A stretch of DNA of 64,000 nt, from the NCBI GenBank assembly GCA_902777005.1, contig CACYSB010000002.1, positions 1 to 64,000 on the forward strand, in the 5' to 3' direction. Under the pieces are notes generated by a model. The model ran no database searches and had not been told where the DNA came from. It saw only the letters and a list, made by a program, of their open reading frames with translations. The DNA comes from an uncultured Bacteroidota bacterium (GTDB taxonomy: Bacteria; Bacteroidota; Bacteroidia; Bacteroidales; P3). Shown piece after piece: positions 55-43,878 of this stretch. Numbering within the stretch: position 1 is the stretch's first letter; every line of letters begins with the position of its first letter. Both the position numbers and the translations under genes were made by a program.

Positions 55-126
55 TTATTGAGATTGAGCCTCTCCGAGGCTTGTTTTGTTACCGTCACAA
101 GTCATGAATTTTTTTTCTTTTGCCAT
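55..126 (-). pseudogene. nifJ-like start fragment (23 codons)
   Basis: An ATG at 126 opens a 23-residue reading frame whose first 13 residues, MAKEKKFMTCDGN, closely match the N-terminus I know for Bacteroidales pyruvate:ferredoxin (flavodoxin) oxidoreductase NifJ, usually MAKEKKFITCDGN. After the Asn the similarity ends abruptly and the frame stops at 55-57. The full enzyme is about 1,180 residues, so this can only be a detached 5' end left by a rearrangement. A perfect 14-bp palindrome (132-145) lies 5 bp upstream of the ATG. Resemblance is from memory; a chance match over 13 residues cannot be fully excluded. Confidence 0.45.
67..81 (+). terminator. possible intrinsic terminator
   Basis: AGCCTC (67-72), loop TCC and GAGGCT (76-81) form a short stem followed on the + strand by TTGTTTTGTT. 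It could end a transcript entering from the left edge. The stem is only 6 bp, so the call is weak. Confidence 0.35.
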
Positions 127-131
127 AATTA

Positions 132-145
132 CTTAAACGTTTAAG
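132..145. promoter_or_regulatory. 14-bp perfect palindrome before nifJ fragment
   Basis: CTTAAACGTTTAAG is perfectly self-complementary. It lies directly upstream of the nifJ-like start on the minus strand and downstream of the WG-repeat gene. A similar AAACGTTTAAAC string follows the recQ promoter near 49400. It may be a regulator site that belonged to the lost nifJ gene; that is inference only. Confidence 0.3.
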
Positions 146-167
146 GATTAATTATTTTGGTGAATTA

Positions 168-842
168 TTATATACTATTCCAAAACTCTGGTGATTGTTG
201 GTCAATATCTAAGGCATCATTGTATAATCCACTGTTAAATACTCTGCATATTTCATTAACAAATTTACTATCTTCTTGTTTGTCATCAAAATTTGACAGC
301 CCAGCAGAAAAGAGGGCGTTCATTTTACTAGCATGCATAAGTTTTAGTGTTCCAGTATTGGCAGTTTTTTCAAGATTAATATAATAGTATTTTCCATCCT
401 TTTCAATTAGTGTATTATCGATGAATTGGGGTTTGAGAGGCCAGATGTTGTCATACACTACTGGAAGAATCATCCTTCCGTTCACGTCAATTATCCCCCA
501 TCTTTTTGTCCCATTGGTTTTTATGTTAACCCGAAGGAAACCTTTTGTAACCGTCTCGTCAATATATGAATAACACGCATAATTCATTCTTGGTAAAACA
601 ATATCACGAATGGATTGTGCTACACCATAAGTATAAGAGTCTTTCTTGAATATAGTCACATCGTTTCCAAATGTGGTGCTCAACCTATGAATTATCTTAA
701 AATCCTTTCCTCCTGTGCCGTCGTGTAGTGAACCTTGTTCATTAATTGTAACAGCCATTGACACATCTATTCCACATGATGGGCATACTGGAAGAACAGA
801 ATTGTATTCTTGTCCGCAACTAGAACATCTTAATATGGCCAT
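168..842 (-). CDS. zinc-ribbon and WG-repeat protein
   Basis: The product is 224 residues. Two CxxC pairs at residues 6-9 and 20-23 form an N-terminal zinc ribbon. A WG (KWG) repeat sits at about residues 114-150 (RWGIIDVNGRMILPVVYDNI), with a weaker one near 72-92 (YGV...IVLPRMNYA). WG-repeat proteins are common in Bacteroidetes and are usually of unknown role; zinc ribbons at the start often mediate protein or nucleic acid contact. No signal peptide is present, so it is probably cytoplasmic. It lies 31 bp downstream of the 874-1533 gene on the same strand and is probably co-transcribed with it. Function is not assigned. Confidence 0.75.
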   Translation of the reverse strand: MAILRCSSCGQEYNSVLPVCPSCGIDVSMAVTINEQGSLHDGTGGKDFKIIHRLSTTFGNDVTIFKKDSYTYGVAQSIRDIVLPRMNYACYSYIDETVTKGFLRVNIKTNGTKRWGIIDVNGRMILPVVYDNIWPLKPQFIDNTLIEKDGKYYYINLEKTANTGTLKLMHASKMNALFSAGLSNFDDKQEDSKFVNEICRVFNSGLYNDALDIDQQSPEFWNSI

Positions 843-873
843 GATTAATGAATTTGTATATTAGTTTAACCTC

Positions 874-1533
874 TTATCGCCTAAACATTTTTCCAATTTC
901 TTCATTTTTATAGTATAGAATCTTCCCCTCCTTATCAACCTCTGTAAAAAGAGATAAGTAAATTAGATTTGGGGGCTGTTGGTTGTATACTTTGACTATC
1001 TCGTTAATATTATTGTCTATTGATTTTGGATCAGACGACACTTCAAAAATCACAATGGTATCGGCATTTGTATTTAAAAAAGCAGTCGGTTCAAATGAAT
1101 TCATAATGTTAAATGCATCAAGCTTTTCTGAAAATGGTTGCAAGTGGAACGTTTTGTATTTTTTCCACCCATTTATTTGTTTTCTTGGGAAATATACAGC
1201 AACATTTGGATATGTATCCTTTATAGTATCAATTACAAATAATACTCTCAAATAATCAATTTTATCAATTCTACTCAAACATGCATTGAGTTCCTTGACC
1301 TGCATGTAATTGCTGAATAGTGGAAAAAATGCTGCCCTCCCCTTCCTCCGATTATATGGTTGCTGGTATAAAATACCTACTGAATAAAGTGCGGACATTA
1401 GCGCCCCTGAATTATCATGCTGGACAAGTTGGTTATTTACAAATCTATATCTCTCCCAATTCCCTTCTGGCAATTTTAAATTCATGCAGTAGGAATAAAA
1501 CAAATCCTGCTTTTTTATATAGTAAATATCCAT
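874..1533 (-). CDS. hypothetical protein, unknown family
   Basis: A 219-residue protein without signal peptide or membrane segment. It is rich in Asn, Tyr and Lys, like its AT-rich surroundings. I recognise no catalytic motif. The pattern of alternating hydrophobic segments (VLFVIDTIKDTYPNVAVYF, TIVIFEVSS, LIYLSLFTEV) suggests an alpha/beta fold. It probably forms a two-gene unit with the zinc-ribbon/WG-repeat gene downstream (31-bp gap). The AT bias compared with the core genes to the right marks this pair as accessory DNA. Confidence 0.65.
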   Translation of the reverse strand: MDIYYIKKQDLFYSYCMNLKLPEGNWERYRFVNNQLVQHDNSGALMSALYSVGILYQQPYNRRKGRAAFFPLFSNYMQVKELNACLSRIDKIDYLRVLFVIDTIKDTYPNVAVYFPRKQINGWKKYKTFHLQPFSEKLDAFNIMNSFEPTAFLNTNADTIVIFEVSSDPKSIDNNINEIVKVYNQQPPNLIYLSLFTEVDKEGKILYYKNEEIGKMFRR

Positions 1534-1592
1534 GACTGTCTTCCTACGTCATTAGTATTTATTAACTATATCCCAAATCTCTTTCAGCACAA

Positions 1593-2231
1593 TCATTTGT
1601 TCTCTTGTTTAAACCCTATACGTTTCCGGGGTGTTGATGGTTTCTCGCGCAGTTGGTCAAGGGCGTCGTTAAGGGCGTTTATCTGCACGGCCATCTCCAT
1701 GTTGTTCTCATTCTGCTCGTGGAGAATCTCGTCCACACGGGCATTGAGCGAATCCACCTTGTGCGACAGTTGTTCCACCTTGTAGTTTACAGACATCATA
1801 CCACTAAGGGCTTCACGCATCGCTATAAATGCGCGAGTGACCATCACACTCATTTGGATTGCAGAAGGACTTTTCAATACGGAAGCCAGCATCAGTGCTC
1901 CATGTTCGGTAAAAGCATACGGCAGGGCTACTTTAGGACGCTTGCTTGGTGATGTCATCACAATTTGTGACGACATATCGCCTTCTTGACCGTATGTCAT
2001 CACAATTTGTGATGACATACTATCCCTTTCTTCTGCTGTCAGTTGGAACATAAAGTCCTCGGGGAAACGTTCAATATTACGTTTCACAGCCTGATTTAGT
2101 ACACGCGTTTCAACACCATACAACTCTGCCAAGTCGCGGTCAAGCATCACACGCTGTCCCCGAACCTCGTATATGCGGTGTTTGATGACTTCAATGTCTG
2201 TATTTGCCTTTATGATTATTTCCTCATTCAT
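1593..2231 (-). CDS. ORF6N domain protein, copy 1
   Basis: A 212-residue protein. The ORF6N domain (phage antirepressor-type, predicted DNA binding) covers about residues 17-65, with the family-typical MLDRDLAELYGVET and NIERFPEDFMFQL. A linker then contains the peptide MSSQIVMT twice, and the conserved PYAFTEHGALMLASVL follows. The C-terminal part is coiled-coil-like (VEQLSHKVDSLNARVDEIL). The two MSSQIVMT units are encoded by DNA palindromes (1952-1976, 1992-2020). The last 190 bp are about 90 percent identical by eye to the end of the second ORF6N gene at 2578. It is the last gene of a three-gene minus-strand operon. Role in the host is unknown; phage relatives are antirepressors. Confidence 0.85.
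   Translation of the reverse strand: MNEEIIIKANTDIEVIKHRIYEVRGQRVMLDRDLAELYGVETRVLNQAVKRNIERFPEDFMFQLTAEERDSMSSQIVMTYGQEGDMSSQIVMTSPSKRPKVALPYAFTEHGALMLASVLKSPSAIQMSVMVTRAFIAMREALSGMMSVNYKVEQLSHKVDSLNARVDEILHEQNENNMEMAVQINALNDALDQLREKPSTPRKRIGFKQENK
1952..1976. repeat. coding palindrome P1 in ORF6N copy 1
   Basis: Twelve-bp arms around one central T (1964), with one mismatch. The core is CACAA-T-TTGTG. On the minus strand it encodes MSSQIVMT. Its centre lies 42 bp (14 codons) from that of P2. Confidence 0.85.
1992..2020. repeat. coding palindrome P2 in ORF6N copy 1
   Basis: Perfect inverted repeat: the 14-bp arm GTATGTCATCACAA (1992-2005), a single centre base T (2006), then the exact reverse complement (2007-2020). 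On the minus strand it encodes MSSQIVMTY. Confidence 0.9.
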
Positions 2232-2241
2232 TTCAATGTTT

Positions 2242-2574
2242 TTATTTCAGCAGTTTCCTATTCCCCACTTCTTCCAGCACGGTCATTTGCTGGATGGCTA
2301 TTTTGTTGAGTTTGTGCAGGCGGTCACGTTGATGGAAGCCCTCGTTAATAAACCCCTCGAATTCGATGGGGTTAAAATTGGGATTGTTCAAATATTCCCA
2401 AATGCCGAGATATTCAATGGTGTTCCTGTTTCGCATCCAATTACCTACAACAGCATTGGGTTCTAGCGAGTTTTTCTGTCGAGCAATATCGGTGATGCAG
2501 ATATAATCCGAGTCACCCACCTTCATTGTCCGGATGGTGGTATTCTTAACATTTATTTCCTGCACCTTGGTCAT
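2242..2574 (-). pseudogene. KilA-N domain protein, internally deleted
   Basis: The 110-residue product begins like Bacteroidetes KilA-N proteins: TTIRTMKVGDSDYICITDIA, then NTIEYLGIWEYLNNPNFNPIEF. Relatives normally run to about 270 residues, with a C-terminal tail of the form ERLxKLNxIAxxQM. Here that tail (HQRDRLHKLNKIAIQQMTVL) follows directly after residue 75, so about 150 central residues appear to be missing with the frame kept. It starts 3 bp after the stop of the upstream ORF6N gene and ends 10 bp before the next, so it is still in the operon. It may be a remnant or a functional minimal DNA-binding module. Confidence 0.7.
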
Positions 2575-2577
2575 AGG

Positions 2578-3267
2578 TTATTTCTCTTGTTTAAACCCTA
2601 TCCGTTTCCGGGGCGTTGATGGTTTCTCGCGCAGCTGGTCGAGGGCGTCGTTGAGGGCGCTTATCTGCACGGCCATCTCCATATTGTTCTCGTTTTGCTC
2701 GTGGAGAATCTCGTCCACACGGGCGTTGAGGTTGTCGACCTTGTGTGACAGTTGCTCCACCTTCAGGTTGACTCCTTGCCAGGCAGCTATTGCGTGACGA
2801 ATGGCCACAAACGCCCGCATAATATTGATGTTGACCTGTATGGCTGTCTCTGACCGCAACACCGAACTCAACATTGCAATACCCAGTTCAGTAAAAGCAT
2901 AAGGAAGATAACGTCCACCTCCCCAATTTGAAGTCGCTATTTGCGACTTCAAATGTTTATTACTCTCTGCATCAACATCTTCTGGACTTGAGGTCACAAT
3001 TTGTGACCTCAAGTCTACATTATGCTCATTCACAGTTATTTGCTGTGATTTCAAAAAGAATACATCTTTTCTATTAAGTTTAAACATAAAGTCTTCAGGG
3101 AAACGCTCAATATTGCGTTTGACCGCTTGGTTCAAGACTTTAGTCTCCACCCCATACAACTCCGCCAAGTCGCGGTCAAGCATAACTTGCATACCACGCA
3201 CCTCGTAGATGCGGTGCTTGATGACTTCGATGTCAGCTGTTTCCTTTATGGCAATATCTGCGGCCAT
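2578..3267 (-). CDS. ORF6N domain protein, copy 2
   Basis: A 229-residue paralogue of the 1593-2231 product and first gene of the operon. It has the same ORF6N domain (IYEVRGMQVMLDRDLAELYG, about residues 18-65) and the same C-terminal coiled coil and tail. The linker before LPYAFTELGIAML contains three related units, KSQQITVN, RSQIVTSS and KSQIATSN, where single-copy family members usually have one. Each unit is encoded by a DNA palindrome (3028-3050, 2985-3015, 2926-2954). A predicted promoter and operator-like palindrome lie just upstream (3315-3349). Likely a DNA-binding regulator of phage origin; the target is unknown. Confidence 0.85.
   Translation of the reverse strand: MAADIAIKETADIEVIKHRIYEVRGMQVMLDRDLAELYGVETKVLNQAVKRNIERFPEDFMFKLNRKDVFFLKSQQITVNEHNVDLRSQIVTSSPEDVDAESNKHLKSQIATSNWGGGRYLPYAFTELGIAMLSSVLRSETAIQVNINIMRAFVAIRHAIAAWQGVNLKVEQLSHKVDNLNARVDEILHEQNENNMEMAVQISALNDALDQLREKPSTPRKRIGFKQEK
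2926..2954. repeat. coding palindrome P3 in ORF6N copy 2
   Basis: Fourteen-bp arms around a central T (2940), with one mismatched pair near the centre. The outer arm is ATTTGAAGTCGC and its complement GCGACTTCAAAT. It encodes LKSQIATSN on the minus strand. Total length, 29 nt, equals that of P2 although the arm sequences differ. Confidence 0.85.
2985..3015. repeat. coding palindrome P4 in ORF6N copy 2
   Basis: Perfect 15-bp arms (GACTTGAGGTCACAA and its exact reverse complement) around a central T at 3000. It encodes DLRSQIVTSS on the minus strand. It is the longest perfect palindrome of the set. Confidence 0.9.
3028..3050. repeat. degenerate coding palindrome P5 in ORF6N copy 2
   Basis: Centre at 3039. 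Six consecutive pairs (TCACAG at 3030-3035 with CTGTGA at 3043-3048) plus one outer and one inner pair, the rest mismatched. It encodes KSQQITVN. Its centre lies 39 bp from that of P4, so it is in frame with the array. It looks like a decayed unit. Confidence 0.6.
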
Positions 3268-3314
3268 TTTGTTTGGCGTTCTTTCTCTAATAGTCTAATA
3301 ACGACAACAATACA

Positions 3315-3336
3315 TCACGTATAATACTATACGTGA
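3315..3336. promoter_or_regulatory. operator-like palindrome at ORF6N promoter
   Basis: TCACGTATA (3315-3323), spacer ATAC, TATACGTGA (3328-3336): nine perfect pairs. On the minus strand it begins about 6 nt downstream of the predicted -7 box and so covers the expected transcription start of the ORF6N operon. Its TCAC...GTGA ends recall the core of the coding palindromes. Autoregulation by the operon's own DNA-binding proteins is a plausible inference. Confidence 0.6.
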
Positions 3337-3341
3337 ATTTA

Positions 3342-3349
3342 CAAAGATA
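3342..3349 (-). promoter_or_regulatory. -7 box for ORF6N operon
   Basis: TATCTTTG on the minus strand, matching the Bacteroidetes TAnnTTTG consensus, about 75 bp upstream of the ATG at 3267. No clear TTTG -33 element is seen. Confidence 0.65.
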
Positions 3350-3509
3350 CTAAAATAAAATGGAATGAGGAAAAATTATTTTGCAGTTTATTGCAATTTG
3401 TATCTATCCCCGGAATGGCCTTTCATGGGCGTACATTGTGGTGGCAAGTTGGGTAATCCACTATTTTAACGATAATTTAACGTTAGTATTACAATATTTC
3501 AACGATATC

Positions 3510-3553
3510 TATCGTTGTATTATCGTTGAAGTATCGTTGAAATATCGTTTAAG
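3510..3553 (+). repeat. four tandem 11-bp repeats (iteron-like)
   Basis: Units TATCGTTGTAT, TATCGTTGAAG, TATCGTTGAAA and TATCGTTTAAG start at exactly 3510, 3521, 3532 and 3543. One unit is one helical turn. An inverted copy (ATTTCAACGATA) lies at 3496-3507 and a weaker one near 3466. The array is enclosed by the inverted repeat 3455-3464 / 3564-3573 and ends 65 bp before the gene at 3619. A regulator-binding array or a relic replication/partition site are possible. Confidence 0.75.
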
Positions 3554-3618: not shown

Positions 3619-4347
3619 ATGGGTAAACAGAAGTCTATGGGACTGTTCTTGAACGGCAGTCTTAAGAAGAGCGGAGTGACATTCTACCTCCGTGGAGGAC
3701 AGACGATTATGCGGACAGCACACAGTGAACAGCCCAAGCGGCGCACGCGGGCGCAGTTCGTCGCGCGGCAGCAGCTGGCACACAGCTGTCGCCTGTGGAA
3801 GATGCTCTGCTGGGCCGGCGAGCCGCTGTTCGAGAAGACGCCCACGGCCTACGCCCGTTTCCGCACCCTGATGCGGCGTACGCCGGTGGTCTTCACACCG
3901 TGCCTCGGACCGATGTACGGCGCCAGCCTGCTGCTGCCCGGTATGCCGGTGAGCGACGGTGTGCTGCCTGTGGTGGAGCAGCGGCTGGGCGAGGTCGACG
4001 GCACTGCCGCCTTGCTCACCTCGCTTGCCGCCGCCGACCTGCGGCGTGGCGACAAGCTGCGGCTCTACACCCTGCGCCAGACCTTGGAGAGCCGGCGGCC
4101 GATGGTGCGCATCAGCGCAGAGGACCTACAGGTGGACGCTTTCCGGGAGGTCGACGGGCGACTGGCCTTGGTGGACGAGGGCTTCGCCGACGACATGACC
4201 GGTTGGGCGCTGGTGCATATCCGCGGGGAGAAGTGCAGCAGCCAGCAGGTGGTCACGCGGTGCACCTACTACGAGTCCTTCACTACCGAGGAGGCTTTCC
4301 TCGCCGCTGCCAAGAGCTATGGCGGCTTGACTCCCGAGGTGCGATAG
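3619..4347 (+). CDS. conserved Bacteroidales protein, unknown function
   Basis: A 242-residue protein without signal peptide or membrane segments. The start (MGKQKSMGLFLNGSLKKSGVTFYLRGGQTIMRTA, read to about residue 34) and the middle (VSDGVLPVVEQRLGEVDGTAALLTSL) match a family of uncharacterised Bacteroidales proteins I recall only as hypothetical. The basic N-terminal segment with repeated Lys/Arg resembles the DUF6266-type small proteins of this phylum, but I cannot confirm membership. The region is GC-rich, unlike the AT-rich DNA upstream. Start choice is supported by the strong Shine-Dalgarno. No neighbour suggests a role. Confidence 0.75.
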   Translation: MGKQKSMGLFLNGSLKKSGVTFYLRGGQTIMRTAHSEQPKRRTRAQFVARQQLAHSCRLWKMLCWAGEPLFEKTPTAYARFRTLMRRTPVVFTPCLGPMYGASLLLPGMPVSDGVLPVVEQRLGEVDGTAALLTSLAAADLRRGDKLRLYTLRQTLESRRPMVRISAEDLQVDAFREVDGRLALVDEGFADDMTGWALVHIRGEKCSSQQVVTRCTYYESFTTEEAFLAAAKSYGGLTPEVR

Positions 4348-43870: not shown

Positions 43871-43878
43871 TATTTTTG
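43871..43878 (+). promoter_or_regulatory. promoter -7 box for 43901-efp unit
   Basis: TATTTTTG, 22 bp before the ATG at 43901. An ATG at 43868 would lie upstream of the transcription start and is rejected. Confidence 0.65.

Follow-up and report, generated by a model that had tools for sequence, protein, structure and literature searches.

A palindrome at the predicted start of por-linked ORF6N cassette arrays stays palindromic while its letters change: a candidate 5′-terminal mRNA hairpin

The window, the whole stretch of 64,000 nucleotides analysed here, is the start of a contig from an uncultured rumen Bacteroidales bacterium, and its first positions carry a minus-strand operon led by an ORF6N gene. 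In the direction of transcription, the operon comprises the following features:

3342–3349, minus strand: −7 box TATCTTTG (TAnnTTTG consensus), with the promoter block CCATTTTATTTTnGTATnTTTGTAAATT that is common to promoters directly before por in relatives
3337 ± 2 nt, minus strand: predicted transcription start (+1), placed from a box position of −12 to −5 (PMC9723704)
3315–3336, minus strand: palindrome, a 9+9 bp inverted repeat with a 4-nt centre, sense strand TCACGTATA-GTAT-TATACGTGA; predicted RNA hairpin of −10.2 kcal/mol
3268–3314, minus strand: 5′ leader from palindrome to start codon, the first part of which, TGTATTGTTGTCGTTATTAG, is conserved with type A palindromes
2578–3267, minus strand: ORF6N-domain protein, 229 aa, first gene of the array; PADLOC candidate PDC-S05
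2242–2574, minus strand: KilA-N-domain protein, 110 aa; PADLOC candidate PDC-S22
1593–2231, minus strand: second ORF6N-domain protein, 212 aa
874–1533, minus strand: 219-aa cargo gene without a Pfam match; found again in the arrays of G009 (L229) and G106 (L250)
168–842, minus strand: cargo gene, 224 aa, weak WG-repeat match; also in the G009 and G106 arrays
86–151, minus strand: por leader repeat, TTAATCCTTAAACGTTTAAG...ATGGCAAAAGAAAAAAAATTCATGACTTGTGACGGTAAC, the right end of the array in the window

The initial annotation had credited the operon with three predicted DNA-binding proteins, and Pfam supports this assignment, with two matches to PF10543 (ORF6N) and one to PF04383 (KilA-N) in the order ORF6N, KilA-N, ORF6N. 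By PADLOC, operon proteins match the phage-defence candidates PDC-S05 and PDC-S22. The AlphaFold model of the ORF6N protein (mean pLDDT 70.8) comprises a small alpha-beta domain, a disordered stretch at 80–117 and a long helix; no solved relative was found by sequence, and Foldseek gave no significant fold match. Between the operon promoter and a divergent gene at 3619, dense TATCGTT / AACGATA repeats occupy 3465–3552, and similar repeats occur upstream in locus L002.

In genus genomes that carry both on one contig, ORF6N genes lie upstream of por, the pyruvate:ferredoxin oxidoreductase gene (Pfam POR_N), on the same strand and with exchangeable genes between them, including Bro-N, RhuM, DNA methylase, HNH, AAA ATPase and Schlafen-AlbA genes. 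Neighbouring cassettes are set apart by a repeat that consists of the por leader with its first codons (TTAATCCTTAAACGTTTAAG...ATGGCAAAAGAAAAAAA); in the loci examined, the search for it gave 55 rows, of which one or two are doubtful. Arrays of this kind, bounded by a por-type promoter and por, were seen at 86–3349 in the window and at L188, L192, L227–L246 and L274–L288. At positions 1–86 of the window, beyond the por leader repeat, the match to por stops after codon 13 and the contig edge follows; the missing por may reflect an assembly break. Because no intact por was found in the source genome's assembly and the window is a contig start, its link to por rests on the 86–151 repeat and on relatives. 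The cargo of the arrays resembles anti-phage defence genes, and no recombinase was seen among the array genes examined. A hypervariable por-linked cassette locus in rumen Bacteroidales is apparently undescribed, and we found no report of por-linked cassette arrays or of ORF6N autoregulation in the open-access literature.

The promoters of the arrays resemble those of por itself. A near-identical promoter block (CCATTTTATTTTTGTATTTTTGTAAATTCAC...) stands directly before por in G105, G065, G095 and G028, and a second form (TATATTTGTACCCTC...) does so in G009 and G007. In some TATATTTGTACCC promoters (L256, L229, L228) the −7 box is preceded by another dyad, AATTTTGCCATATCGGCAAAATT, which may serve as the promoter's own operator. 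Elsewhere in the window, at 43871 on the plus strand, a promoter-like box, TATTTTTG, is directly followed by an imperfect inverted repeat, CATTTTCAAATCTAATGTGAAAATG.

Read in the operon direction, the start region is TATCTTTG-TAAAT-TCACGTATA-GTAT-TATACGTGA, with TCACGTATA-ATAC-TATACGTGA on the plus strand at 3315–3336. The perfect 9+9 bp repeat described by the initial annotation is thus present at these positions, and its distance from the box, given there as about 6 nt, is exactly 5 nt. In mapped Bacteroidota promoters the '−7' box occupies −12 to −5 (PMC9723704), which would put +1 near 3337 and let the palindrome span roughly +2 to +23, in keeping with the earlier proposal of a dyad over the predicted start point. 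The predicted distance of the stem-loop from the 5′ end, with its start at about +2, follows from this box rule; the −33 element of the promoter is weak by eye.

Several kinds of element were considered and rejected for this repeat. An intrinsic terminator does not fit the AT-rich inner stem and the lack of a T run after the stem on either strand; an invertible promoter does not fit a single-copy repeat of 22 bp whose orientation towards por is constant in all genomes examined; and no Rfam family matched 3315–3336, even at E up to 1. With up to 3 mismatches allowed, the window contains no further match to the repeat, and 100 shuffles gave none.

Within a 464-kb sample of the same genome, 7 of 242 TAnnTTTG boxes are followed at 2–12 nt by a perfect inverted repeat of at least 7 bp, and only the palindrome at 3315–3336 reaches 9 bp. 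Repeats of 9 bp occurred at 26 of 20,000 random positions, which translates to about 0.3 expected behind the 242 boxes, so that a single such palindrome is only mildly unusual. A chance palindrome without function would account for this count, yet it is scarcely credible in view of conservation in 18 genomes and of five sequence types at the same position.

That conservation emerged when 120 genomes of the genus, all of them metagenome assemblies, were searched for the palindrome pattern with up to 2 mismatches; many contigs break at the palindrome locus, and relatives are not independent. The pattern was matched in 19 genomes, once per genome, and in 18 of these at the same place behind the promoter box (one cut by Ns), followed by an ORF6N gene, by a relative or remnant of one, or by unreadable sequence; the lone match in an unrelated place is L046. 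The reversed pattern matched in one genome of the 120. Conservation upstream of homologous operons, a point raised by the initial annotation, is therefore borne out, and the recurrence at one place in 18 genomes indicates that the palindrome is real. In other genera of the family, no such palindrome was present in the five por regions compared. A phage or plasmid origin of the leader was rejected, as neither 50,697 phage records nor 72,556 plasmid records contain a match; in viral contigs, four exact matches to the palindrome occur in unrelated contexts that lack the −7 box.

The palindrome at the operon start is conserved as a palindrome while its letters change. Five sequence types share the one position, most of them fully complementary, with loops of 3–8 nt:

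Type A: TCACGTATA-N4-TATACGTGA, in 19 distinct leaders
Type B: GCGCTATAT..ATATAGCGC, in L227, L228, L229, L243 and L256
Type C: TGGCATT..AATGCCA, in full TGGCATTATATATAAAATGCCA, in L193
Type D: CACTATAT-GCGAA-ATATAGTG, in L244 and L245
Type E: CGCTATA-CTATT-TATAGCG, in L283

Types A, B, D and E have inner TATA/TATA half-sites in common (CTATA or GTATA), and half-site spacing shifts by 2 bp. The type C promoter is identical to the type A promoter up to TTTTTGTAAATT.

To quantify the pairing, we aligned the 19 type A leaders with the one type C leader. In this alignment 93.3% of stem cells pair, compared with 89.1 in shuffles, and 5 of 9 stem pairs have changed on both sides, compared with 1.0 in shuffles. 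The covariation score is 0.204, against 0.114 for shuffled and at most 0.152 for slid alignments, and neither the pairing nor the covariation values were reached by any of 500 shuffles or by a slid control. Since most of the double-sided changes come from the single type C sequence and one from L192 (pair 7), they amount to few independent events, the counts of which are approximate. Pairing is kept through compensatory change, both in these pairs and across the five types, a pattern that by itself cannot tell RNA from DNA. One-sided changes within type A are mostly G·U-compatible (A to G), with A·C at pair 3 as the main exception and with events too few for significance; the A·C mismatch occurs in six relatives, and in L190 three pairs are broken. 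Part of the conservation is due to recent common descent, since within type A loop and stem are conserved to the same degree (pairwise difference 0.10 and 0.11, respectively).

The palindrome distinguishes promoters that lead arrays from those that stand before por. By an approximate hand tally, 28 of 38 array-leading promoters carry the hairpin, compared with 0 of 17 por-adjacent ones (Fisher p = 1e-7, kinship ignored); collapsed to sequence types, the counts are 5 of 13 and 0 of 15 (p = 0.013). It follows that the palindrome belongs to the array head and not to the promoter as such, with ten array-leading promoters devoid of it. Predicted stem energies are −7 to −14.5 kcal/mol in most hairpin leaders versus 0 to −2.9 kcal/mol in por-adjacent leaders, and folding scores are modest (z about −2 to −3, not significant for L227 and L192).

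Confinement to array heads could also mark a junction scar, left when an array was joined to a por-type promoter by fold-back copying of the first transcribed bases, or a recombination site, in either case with no function in expression. In type A the left arm, TTCACGTRTA, is similar to the first bases of the plain por leader (TTCACGTGTAGTGT...), which would leave the right arm alone as new. The type B left arm is, however, absent from the plain por leader, the change at pair 7 of L192 on both sides is what selection on pairing would produce, and the differences between arrays of close relatives lie behind the first gene or at the end next to por, not at the palindrome; we accordingly find a scar or recombination site hard to credit. 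The window and L250 differ by an extra cassette before the por repeat. An attI-like recombination site at the array head was rejected, as the cassette exchanges between close relatives lie downstream or at the por repeat and leave the palindrome unaffected.

The initial annotation called the palindrome operator-like; on such a view the operon's own ORF6N or KilA-N protein would bind the start-point dyad and block RNA polymerase. A two-fold symmetric site does lie over the promoter of an operon that encodes its own candidate regulators, the classic position for autorepression; ORF6N and KilA-N are predicted DNA-binding domains; an ORF6N-family gene comes first in 20 of 21 palindrome-bearing loci; one pattern per genome is what a private operator would show; and a coiled coil in the ORF6N model could mediate dimerisation. 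The operator sequence, however, does not change with the DNA-binding domain. Types A, B and C precede near-identical ORF6N domains: a few residues distinguish that of L002 (type A) from that of L009 (type B), and the ORF6N of L193 (type C) closely resembles that of L188 (type A). Type B and D heads also occur where the first gene is not a full ORF6N and KilA-N genes are found instead (L228 and L244, respectively). Together with the variable half-site spacing, the lack of any coupling to the palindromes inside ORF6N genes and the lack of a significant solved relative of ORF6N by Foldseek, this makes autorepression rather improbable.

Those in-gene palindromes are a separate oddity, and a stronger one than the palindrome at the promoter. 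Perfect in-frame inverted repeats with arms of at least 10 nt occur in 19 of 46 non-redundant ORF6N genes, compared with 1 of 230 synonymous-codon shuffles, nearly all of them near codons 70–75 (or about 87–100), with sequences and encoded residues that differ. In the window ORF6N genes they lie at 1992–2020, 2926–2954 and 2985–3015, and others were seen in L050–L131, with the sequences TCACAAWTTGTGA, GGTCGCAAWTTGCGACC, GGTGCCAAAATGGCACC and GGTCGAAAATTTCGACC; in the AlphaFold model of the window ORF6N protein, its repeats map in or beside the disordered stretch. In L036, L039, L047 and L233, about 25 N-terminal codons of ORF6N are left and joined to the SQIVTS or SHIVTS palindrome region, a form that would fit breakpoints at the in-gene palindromes. 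In other ORF6N genes (L018–L025, L075, L105, L106, L117), a coding-type palindrome (TCACAAWTTGTGA) lies in the leader shortly upstream of the start codon.

It had been proposed that one protein reads both the promoter palindrome and the coding palindromes, with their TCAC...GTGA ends as the link. These ends are confined to type A, as type B ends in GCGC and type C in TGGC. The genes behind type B promoters carry GGTGCCAAAATGGCACC, TCACAATTTGTGA or GGTCGCAATTTGCGACC, and GGTCGAAAATTTCGACC genes are among those behind type A promoters. A common reader is disfavoured because palindrome type, which switches among A–E under near-identical ORF6N domains, follows neither the downstream protein nor the in-gene palindromes. 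Alternatively, ORF6N proteins might recognise palindromic or hairpin structure and not a fixed sequence, which would explain both leader palindromes that stay paired as their letters change and in-frame palindromes at one fixed place in the domain. We regard this as very improbable; if true, ORF6N would use shape to regulate its own message or to tag its own array.

A DNA operator could also serve a different regulator, encoded by the host or by another part of the array, with the inner TATA/TATA half-sites as its main target. The recurrence of CTATA or GTATA in four of the types and the location over +1 would suit such a site; type C, by contrast, has no TATA core, core spacing varies (4, 5 or 7 nt), each genome has one site with none on por-adjacent promoter copies, and ORF6N is the one protein family that the palindrome-bearing arrays have in common. 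We therefore give this regulator little credence. Taken together, operator readings are possible but unlikely, the points in their favour being the common inner half-sites, the position over +1 and the loop conserved within type A.

Because the palindrome changes its letters and yet stays palindromic, it is probably the tip of a folded mRNA and not a landing site of the operon's own ORF6N protein. We propose that it is the DNA of a 5′-terminal hairpin, from about +2, that sets the stability or output of the array transcript, a reading that may well be correct. Transcription would begin about 5 nt behind the TATCTTTG box; one or two nucleotides would stay unpaired at the 5′ end, and the stretch from +2 to +23 would form a stem of 9 bp closed by a GUAU loop. 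The hairpin would cap the leader of a long polycistronic mRNA, with ORF6N first, followed by the cassette genes and leading towards por, and its likely job would be to shield the 5′ end. Should the array be transcribed into por, a central metabolic gene would depend on a hairpin-headed message. The free loop length (3–8 nt), the one-sided changes that leave G·U pairs and the predicted position of the stem near the 5′ end all speak for RNA. Identical type B half-sites have a 3-nt centre in L243 and a 5-nt centre in L229, a rotation that would not be expected for a rigid DNA-binding dimer. Against the hairpin, DNA palindromes read by dimers covary alike, and the inner TATA/TATA of types A, B, D and E might be an operator core. 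The five natural types offer a ready set with which to test RNA structure against DNA operator at one position.

Elements of this locus resemble several known systems. Integron cassette arrays are laid out as promoter, attI and cassettes, and the por-linked arrays likewise have one head promoter, exchangeable cassettes and a repeated palindromic boundary element between cassettes; they differ in that the arrays examined showed no recombinase, the boundary repeat is the por leader with first codons, and the observed cassette exchanges are not at the hairpin. Start-point operators are found in autoregulated phage repressor, antirepressor and toxin-antitoxin operons, which share with this locus a dyad over +1 and an operon of predicted DNA-binding proteins; here, unlike in those systems, palindrome sequence and spacing change while the candidate binding domain does not. 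Stem-loops at the 5′ end stabilise bacterial mRNAs, as in the ompA leader of E. coli. As there, the stem-loop of the cassette arrays would lie a few nucleotides from the predicted 5′ end, and it keeps its pairing as its sequence drifts; in contrast to ompA, it is a single short predicted hairpin in uncultured rumen Bacteroidales and is tied to the head of a cassette array.
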